Under the pieces are notes generated by a model. The model was not told where the DNA came from and did not search any database. It worked only from the letters and a program-made list of their open reading frames with translations. From the IMG/VR virus record IMGVR_UViG_3300025138_010099, positions 1 through 20,495 of that record: a DNA stretch of 20,495 nucleotides; one strand, given 5' to 3'. Made by a program: the position numbers and the translations under genes. This DNA is from a virus. Shown here one piece after another: positions 2,085 to 3,138 of this stretch. Each line of letters starts with the position of its first letter. The stretch's first letter is position 1.

Positions 2085-2447
2085 ATGAAAAAGTCTGAAT
2101 TAAGAGCTTTTATTAAAGAGCAAATAAAATCTTCCCTTGTTTCTGAAGCAACTGAAAATGATGTAAAAGTTCAACAAGATTTAAATATAGAATTAGAAAA
2201 AACAGCGGATTTAATGTCTAAAATGGATATGAATGAAGAAGATGAACTTGAACCATCAAAATCAGAACTTAACAAATCTAAAGGTTTAGCTAAAGCAAAA
2301 GAAGAACTTGCTCAATTAACTAAACAAATGAAATCTTTAGCTCGTAAATATAAAGAAGCTGAAGGTGAAGAAAAAGCAAAAATAGTAGCTGACCTTAAGG
2401 AAAAAACAAAACTTAAGAAGGAATTAGATGCTATTATAGACAAATAA
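2085..2447 (+). CDS. Small charged coiled-coil phage protein
   Basis: A 120-residue protein, very rich in Lys and Glu. The N-terminus, MKKSELRAFIKEQIKSSL, resembles an amphipathic 'LRxxIREEI' start that I associate with structural or accessory proteins of marine T4-like phages. It is followed by VSEAT, which looks somewhat like a T4-type prohead protease site (hydrophobic-x-E|A). Residues about 65-118 form a continuous predicted helix with heptad spacing. No signal peptide or catalytic motif is seen. It is the first gene after a late-promoter-like motif and lies just upstream of the spanin-like pair and terminase. It could be a head-core component or an accessory protein; I do not recognise it securely. 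Confidence 0.65.
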   Translation: MKKSELRAFIKEQIKSSLVSEATENDVKVQQDLNIELEKTADLMSKMDMNEEDELEPSKSELNKSKGLAKAKEELAQLTKQMKSLARKYKEAEGEEKAKIVADLKEKTKLKKELDAIIDK

Positions 2448-2456
2448 AAAAATATT

Positions 2457-2828
2457 ATGCTTAAATGGATAAAAAAAAATTATCATTTATTTGTTATATT
2501 AGGAGCGGGTATTATAGTTTTTAATTTTTTTTCAAAAAAAGAAGAGTATGTTGAAGACTATAGTCTAAAGATACAAGCATTAGAAGCAAAAGTAGATTCA
2601 CTTCATACTGAAAATTCTGAATTAGTTAAAGAATCTAAAGTGTTAGAAAACCAATTATCTAAGTATGATAAAAGAATTAAAAACCTTAATCTTAAAATTA
2701 ATGTTATTAAAAATGAAACTCAACAAAAAATTGATGCTGTTGATAGTTTTGGTGATGATGAGCTTGAACGCTTTTTCACAGAACGATACCTTAAAGTTAA
2801 AGGACAACAAAAAGATACAATTAACTAA
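2457..2828 (+). CDS. Membrane-anchored coiled-coil protein, i-spanin-like candidate
   Basis: A 123-residue protein. A basic N-terminus (MLKWIKKN) precedes one hydrophobic segment (residues about 9-25, HLFVILGAGIIVFNFF), then KK and a long heptad-rich region (residues about 36-95) ending in an acidic tail. This N-in/C-out layout, one membrane anchor with a periplasmic coiled coil, is that of Rz-type inner-membrane spanins, which help disrupt the outer membrane at lysis. Its last 116 bases overlap the next gene in another frame, as in Rz/Rz1 pairs. No sequence identity to a named spanin is claimed. It could instead be a membrane protein with another role. It starts at ATG 2457, 9 bases after the preceding stop, with no Shine-Dalgarno sequence. 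Confidence 0.65.
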   Translation: MLKWIKKNYHLFVILGAGIIVFNFFSKKEEYVEDYSLKIQALEAKVDSLHTENSELVKESKVLENQLSKYDKRIKNLNLKINVIKNETQQKIDAVDSFGDDELERFFTERYLKVKGQQKDTIN

Positions 2829-3138
2829 ACCCGTAGCTAAATTAGTAATAAAAGATTTGCTAAAAGGTGATGGTTTAAGTAATGAAATAAAAACAATACA
2901 GATACTTTTGACAGAAACTAATAATAAGTTTCTTTCCCAAAGTGATTTAGTTTTTAATTTAAAAAATCAAATTATTAATTTTGAAAGAATAGTAAATAAT
3001 AAAGATAATCAAGTAGGTTTATCTAAAGAATTAAGTGAAAAGTTACAGGCAGATTTAAAAAAACAAAAACTTAAAACTAAACTATATGGAGGAGCAGGAA
3101 TATTAGCTGTGGTAGGAGTGTTAGTTTTAATAAAATAA
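2713..3138 (+). CDS. Exported coiled-coil protein with C-terminal membrane segment, overlapping spanin-partner candidate
   Basis: I place the start at ATG 2713 (141 residues) rather than the more upstream ATG 2665. From 2713 the protein begins with a textbook signal peptide: MKLNKK, a hydrophobic core LMLLIVLVMMSL, then NAFS|Q. A Gln at +1 after AxS fits the Bacteroidetes 'Q-rule' for signal peptidase I substrates. There is no lipobox cysteine. The mature part is Lys-rich with heptads (NLKNQIINFERIVNN and onward). The last 19 residues (KLYGGAGILAVVGVLVLIK) form a hydrophobic segment with a terminal Lys. It overlaps the preceding gene by 116 bases in the +1 frame and ends 1 base before gp17. 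The partner-of-spanin idea rests on architecture and overlap only; classical o-spanins are lipoproteins, which this is not. Confidence 0.7.
   Translation: MKLNKKLMLLIVLVMMSLNAFSQNDTLKLKDNKKIQLTKPVAKLVIKDLLKGDGLSNEIKTIQILLTETNNKFLSQSDLVFNLKNQIINFERIVNNKDNQVGLSKELSEKLQADLKKQKLKTKLYGGAGILAVVGVLVLIK

Follow-up and report, generated by a model that had tools for sequence, protein, structure and literature searches.

Within a 20,495-base IMG/VR viral record (the window), we describe two overlapping genes, ORF1 and ORF2, whose products on balance seem to form a spanin-like complex of two components by which T4-like phages of Bacteroidetes would disrupt the outer membrane, and in which the outer subunit is not a lipoprotein. 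In the mechanism we propose, ORF1 would be anchored in the inner membrane through its N-terminus, its long coiled coil reaching into the periplasm. ORF2 would be exported by Sec and cut by signal peptidase I, leaving an N-terminal Gln, and would be held, most likely in the outer membrane, by a hydrophobic helix at its C-terminus, with the polarity of this outer subunit reversed relative to Rz/Rz1. The distal ends, namely the ORF1 C-terminus and the KPIAKLVIKDL region near the N-terminus of ORF2, probably dock. Removal of the peptidoglycan by the endolysin would let the complex collapse and so draw the inner and outer membranes together, presumably to fuse.

A dual-coding gene pair conserved across relatives

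The preliminary description of this DNA had claimed a 116-nt overlap between the two frames, and this is exact, with ORF2 in the +1 frame (Table 1). Its account of the proteins was likewise borne out: an N-terminal anchor and a coiled coil are apparent for ORF1 in both sequence and model, and ORF2 has a signal peptide ending before a Gln, then a helical body and a hydrophobic C-terminal segment whose last residue is Lys. ORF2 runs from MKLNKKLMLLIVLVMMSLNAFS, followed at the cut by Q, to LKKQKLKTKLYGGAGILAVVGVLVLIK and contains no Cys; cleavage is predicted between AFS and Q, leaving the helical body and the hydrophobic C-terminus. Two alternative in-frame ATGs lie at 2665 and 2701. The Gln at position +1 conforms to the Q-rule of Bacteroidetes, in which Gln follows the signal peptidase I cleavage site (PMC5837995). 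The distal motif of ORF1 is VDxFxDDELExFFTERY.

Table 1. Features of the gene pair and its neighbours in the window, and copies of gp86 in relatives
Feature	Coordinates	Strand	Description
Gene before ORF1	2085-2447		120-aa charged helical protein
ORF1, 123 aa	2457..2828	+	i-spanin-like: N-terminal transmembrane anchor, long periplasmic helix, conserved distal motif
ORF1/ORF2 overlap, 116 nt	2713..2828	+	Dual-coding, ORF2 in +1 frame; covers the C-terminus of ORF1 and, in ORF2, the signal peptide and the N-terminus of the mature protein
ORF2, 141 aa from ATG at 2713	2713..3138	+	Exported partner, without lipobox
ORF2 signal peptidase I signal peptide, residues 1-22	2713..2778	+	Gln23 at +1
ORF2 residues 39-53, KPVAKLVIKDLLKGD	2827..2871	+	Most conserved stretch of mature protein, far from the C-terminal anchor; putative docking site for the distal end of ORF1
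ORF2 basic flank LQADLKKQKLKTK and tail	3043..3135	+	17-residue uncharged hydrophobic tail, terminal Lys
terL	start 3140		T4-type large terminase, directly 3' of ORF2
gp86 copies	L001:12413-13558; L167:17136-18350; G022:36325-37515		

We collected homologues from IMG/VR and one isolate, in a first set of 131 pairs later widened to 220 distinct pairs (from 353 ORF1 loci and 359 ORF2 loci). Phage contigs with the pair number in the hundreds and are related to a Flavobacterium phage; the nearest isolate to the window is Flavobacterium phage immuto (terminase 62% identical). Loss of the overlap in relatives had been named beforehand as evidence against the pair; instead, the +1 offset is kept in 219 of the 220 distinct pairs. 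All 220 carry the SQ cleavage motif (FSQ in 215, SSQ in 2, LSQ in 1 and TSQ in 2), and the lack of a lipobox noted for the window's ORF2 holds family-wide (0/220). The hydrophobic tail is kept in nearly all pairs, uncharged and mostly 15-20 residues long; together with the terminal residue it measures 18 in 92 of the 103 complete ORF2 proteins of the first set. The last residue is Lys in about 177 of the 220 pairs and Asn in 30. Mature ORF2 contains Cys in only 53 distinct pairs, and the window pair is Cys-free.

We considered a hidden lipobox and rejected it: the Cys found three residues before the Gln in four first-set members (e.g. NCFSQ) lies outside any lipobox. In the 120-kb contig G001, the ORF2 copy (L080:6001-6412) is split over two frames, through sequencing error or decay. 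A tblastn search of the phage collection with ORF2, immuto gp84/gp85 and the proteins of Croceibacter phage P2559S gave no further convincing isolates, and a search of genome contigs found no prophage family, returning one MAG contig.

Both frames are under selection, as several observations on codon choice indicate. When ORF1 was resampled with synonymous codons, the +1 frame stayed open in 1.5% of resamplings, compared with 104/104 observed. Opposite FSQ, all 104 sequences encode the second Phe of ORF1 with TTC; among the genes of the window itself, TTC accounts for 22 of 166 Phe codons. The ORF1 residue after that Phe is variable (Thr/Ala/Ser), and the ORF2 Gln is invariant there. Finally, ORF1 shows half as many synonymous differences within the overlap (0.16) as outside it (0.33). 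The synonymous-codon tests reject a chance origin of the ORF2 reading frame.

Lysis-gene context in relatives

The context of the pair in relatives supports a role in lysis. In immuto, gp84/gp85 are homologous to ORF1/ORF2 and lie between the lysis genes gp79-gp83 and gp86, in the order gp80 - gp81 - gp82 - gp83 - gp84/gp85 - gp86, with gp80 a GH19 endolysin (PHROG 181, E 3e-63) and gp81 a holin (PF05105). The terL gene of immuto is about 73 kb away. With its deposited start at 46129, gp85 (L156:46087-46488) lacks the signal peptide; reading from the ATG at 46087 recovers it and gives an overlap with gp84 of 89 nt. GH19 and/or holin genes are found upstream in about 35 further distinct freshwater pairs. 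In G022, a 176-kb marine contig, a different endolysin (38230-38838) is followed after a 27-nt gap by ORF1, which overlaps ORF2 by 119 nt, and gp86 begins inside the last codons of ORF2. The G022 endolysin is 64% identical to a G001 protein matching PHROG 33083 'endolysin'. The pair thus accompanies two endolysin types, GH19 in immuto and its freshwater relatives and another type in G022, and because gp86 flanks it with both, a lysis role is the best reading. As for gp86 itself, this conserved membrane protein stands beside the lysis genes of three genomes whose endolysins differ, and may be a lysis component.

The preliminary description had proposed a lysis pair from architecture, and linkage to holin or endolysin genes in immuto, the freshwater clade and G022 supports this; the window itself does not share that linkage, its pair being followed by terL. 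This is the neighbour in 173 of the 220 pairs, the window and the marine clade included. No recognised lysis gene was found among the window genes searched, and a single amidase was all that searches for GH19-type endolysin, Amidase_2 and PHROG 181 returned from the long marine contigs. Upstream in the window, positions 28-1230 encode an FAD-dependent oxidoreductase-like protein (PHROG 12409 dehydrogenase), a gene found upstream in about half of the pairs; the 120-aa protein preceding ORF1 matches nothing in PHROG and gives only weak Pfam hits.

Predicted structure and membrane placement

AlphaFold2 models, built from alignments that left out the immuto row, depict both proteins as essentially long single helices. 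ORF1 (pLDDT 86.5) has helices at residues 9-96 and 100-118, and ORF2 (pLDDT 77.6) is disordered at 22-38, followed by a helix at 39-51 and one helix at 53-140. By arithmetic from these models, the non-membrane parts of ORF1 and ORF2 form helices of ~10 nm each, which together may be long enough to span the periplasm end to end. Conservation peaks distal to the membrane anchors, at residues 101-110 of ORF1 (0.80) and 41-50 of ORF2 (0.85). The ORF2 peak lies almost wholly outside the overlap and is therefore not a by-product of dual coding; the ORF1 peak lies inside it, so part of the ORF1 conservation may come from dual coding.

In database searches, ORF1 matches PHROG 739 'Rz-like spanin' weakly (E=4.8e-5), a match driven in part by the coiled coil; this is also the family that most members match (19/43, weak). 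ORF2 has no Pfam match and weak PHROG matches to families of unknown function, and its profile gave only weak coiled-coil matches against solved structures.

Hydrophobic alpha-helices normally stop in the inner membrane, and one inserted in the outer membrane would be unusual. We compared the flanks and hydrophobicity of the ORF2 tail with those of other segments. The net charge on its N-side is +3 to +6 in 196 of 218 proteins and on its C-side about 0 to +1, the reverse of what the positive-inside rule predicts for a type I segment in the inner membrane. The tail is also less hydrophobic than the ORF1 anchor (approximate dG -1.5 versus -3.1, on a scale used only to compare segments), with an approximate insertion score above zero for 48 of 218 tails. 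Three flavobacterial u-spanin-like proteins, from phages 11b, FCL-2 and RAP44, carry a net charge of +2 to +3 after the segment and have stronger hydrophobicity. Judged from these features, the outer membrane is the likelier place for the ORF2 tail to insert.

Relation to known spanins and alternative readings

The pair resembles the overlapped two-component spanins, whose prototypes are lambda Rz/Rz1 and T4 PseT.3/PseT.2. ORF1 has the sequence and model of a type II inner-membrane subunit with a periplasmic coiled coil, the second gene overlaps it in another frame (overlapped, embedded or adjacent genes being typical of such systems), the partner is short and exported, and relatives place the pair among lysis genes. 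Unlike these systems, ORF2 is a signal peptidase I (Q-rule) product in which a C-terminal hydrophobic anchor takes the place of the lipobox that an outer lipoprotein subunit would carry, and the interface would use the ORF2 N-terminus. The pair is also mostly free of the periplasmic Cys that could form disulfides. Such Cys are not strictly defining, intermolecular disulfide Cys being found in 507/528 known two-component systems and missing from about 4% (Kongari et al. 2018); their absence from most members nevertheless counts against the spanin-like reading.

Like the u-spanins (T1 gp11 and, as read here, 11b gp49, FCL-2 gp19 and RAP44 gp03), ORF2 has an export signal, an extended body and a C-terminal hydrophobic segment. 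However, u-spanins combine an N-terminal lipobox with a C-terminal TMD in one protein; ORF2 lacks the lipobox, its body is helical where theirs is beta, it depends on a second gene, and its charges come before, not after, the C-terminal segment. The lipobox defines o-spanins, and type I or outer-membrane proteins acting as spanins are considered possible outside those criteria (Kongari et al. 2018). Since the lipoprotein test fails for both o-spanins and u-spanins, present definitions do not admit the pair, although it would act in a spanin-like way; it is best called a variant two-component spanin in function, outside the defined o-spanin and u-spanin classes. In the open-licence papers that we searched, no two-component spanin without a lipoprotein is described.

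A different arrangement, in which both subunits of a lysis pair sit in the inner membrane, is unlikely but carries real weight. ORF2 would then be a type I protein (N-out, C-in) with a u-spanin-like C-terminal segment, and the outer membrane would be reached by its N-terminal region or by another protein. The inner membrane is where Sec normally stops segments of this kind. Moreover, Flavobacterium phage 11b and Riemerella phage RAP44 encode proteins with a signal peptide, body and C-terminal TMD, in these cases with a lipobox, right beside the endolysin, and FCL-2 has one <1 kb from it. The charge pattern of ORF2 is however opposite to that of a type I protein, and neither subunit would then have a means, lipid or beta, of anchoring to the outer membrane. 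We regard as improbable a mode of lysis with no membrane linkage, in which ORF2 would be a disruptin-like cationic helix with a fusion-peptide-like tail and ORF1 its regulator or carrier. In the window ORF2 and most relatives, a hydrophobic, Gly-rich end does follow a basic helix, but ORF1 and ORF2 are hardly ever found apart, long helices make up much of each protein, and their distal ends are the most conserved.

There is a similarly small chance that the pair has no part in lysis and serves in envelope modification, superinfection exclusion or as a head/packaging accessory. The frequent proximity of terL and the lack of a recognised lysis gene among the window genes searched would fit such roles; the immuto pair, far from terL and between endolysin/holin and gp86, argues against them, as does the like placement in the freshwater clade and, with a different endolysin, in G022. 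Very improbable, finally, is a canonical lipoprotein spanin elsewhere in the genome to which ORF1/ORF2 would be accessory. Our lipoprotein scans, which covered immuto and the marine contigs G001, G021 and G022, did find candidates: gp30 (75 aa) and gp149 in immuto, a 183-aa lipoprotein beside a 94-aa N-TM protein in G001, and 126-aa lipoproteins near gp79 in G021/G022. Yet no candidate is common to immuto and the possibly incomplete contigs G021 and G022, none is overlapped by a type II partner, and the coding-strand candidates all lack a C-terminal TMD. The immuto gp30 is present in two freshwater relatives only and missing from G021 and G022.

The spanin-like reading of ORF1/ORF2 bears on phages for which spanins are missing. 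About 13% of surveyed phages, Bacteroides and Croceibacter phages included, have no recognisable spanin, in part because searches begin from lipoproteins (PMC6139136). The pair offers a search template for Bacteroidetes phage lysis cassettes, in which the second gene is hidden by the overlap and its start is liable to misannotation (immuto gp85, P2559S gp30). As immuto is a cultured Flavobacterium phage, its conserved non-lipoprotein pair also permits a direct genetic test of whether a different anchor suffices.

The spanin-less list of Kongari et al. (2018) includes Croceibacter phages P2559S and P2559Y, Bacteroides phage B124-14 and Rhodothermus phage Rm378. In P2559S (L160:27300-28065), the gene next after the endolysin, gp29, encodes a type II coiled-coil protein. 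An unannotated ORF (27508-28065) overlaps it in the +1 frame and has an SPI-Q signal, a coiled coil and no lipobox; the deposited gp30 (27826-28065) is a truncated version of this ORF. The layout is like that of the window pair, but there is no detectable sequence homology, and where ORF2 has a hydrophobic helix the P2559S ORF has a strand-like C-terminus ending in ...YYGGRLSFAIW. No relatives of this pair, seen in a single genome, were found by tblastn in the phage collection. The P2559S case suggests that the idea of a C-terminal anchor may extend beyond the ORF1/ORF2 family. We tentatively propose, with a little under even confidence, a spanin class whose outer subunit is anchored by a C-terminal transmembrane helix in place of N-terminal acyl chains, with reversed polarity; it would be one of several non-lipoprotein solutions (a helix here, a strand-like C-terminus in P2559S) in Bacteroidetes phages, some of them listed as spanin-less.

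Single proteins with an N-terminal TM and no lipobox stand beside the amidase/endolysin in P2559Y (L170:22998-23621) and B124-14 (L161:6765-7370); their C-terminus is possibly strand-rich, and they are possible single-protein links of reversed polarity. Lipobox proteins lie near the endolysin in 11b (L174:28129-28593), FCL-2 (L175:11415-11798), RAP44 (L176:1209-1787) and Cellulophaga phage phi18:1 (L177:38693-39000, read as a partial stretch), and those of 11b, FCL-2 and RAP44 also have the C-terminal TMD of the u-spanin layout.
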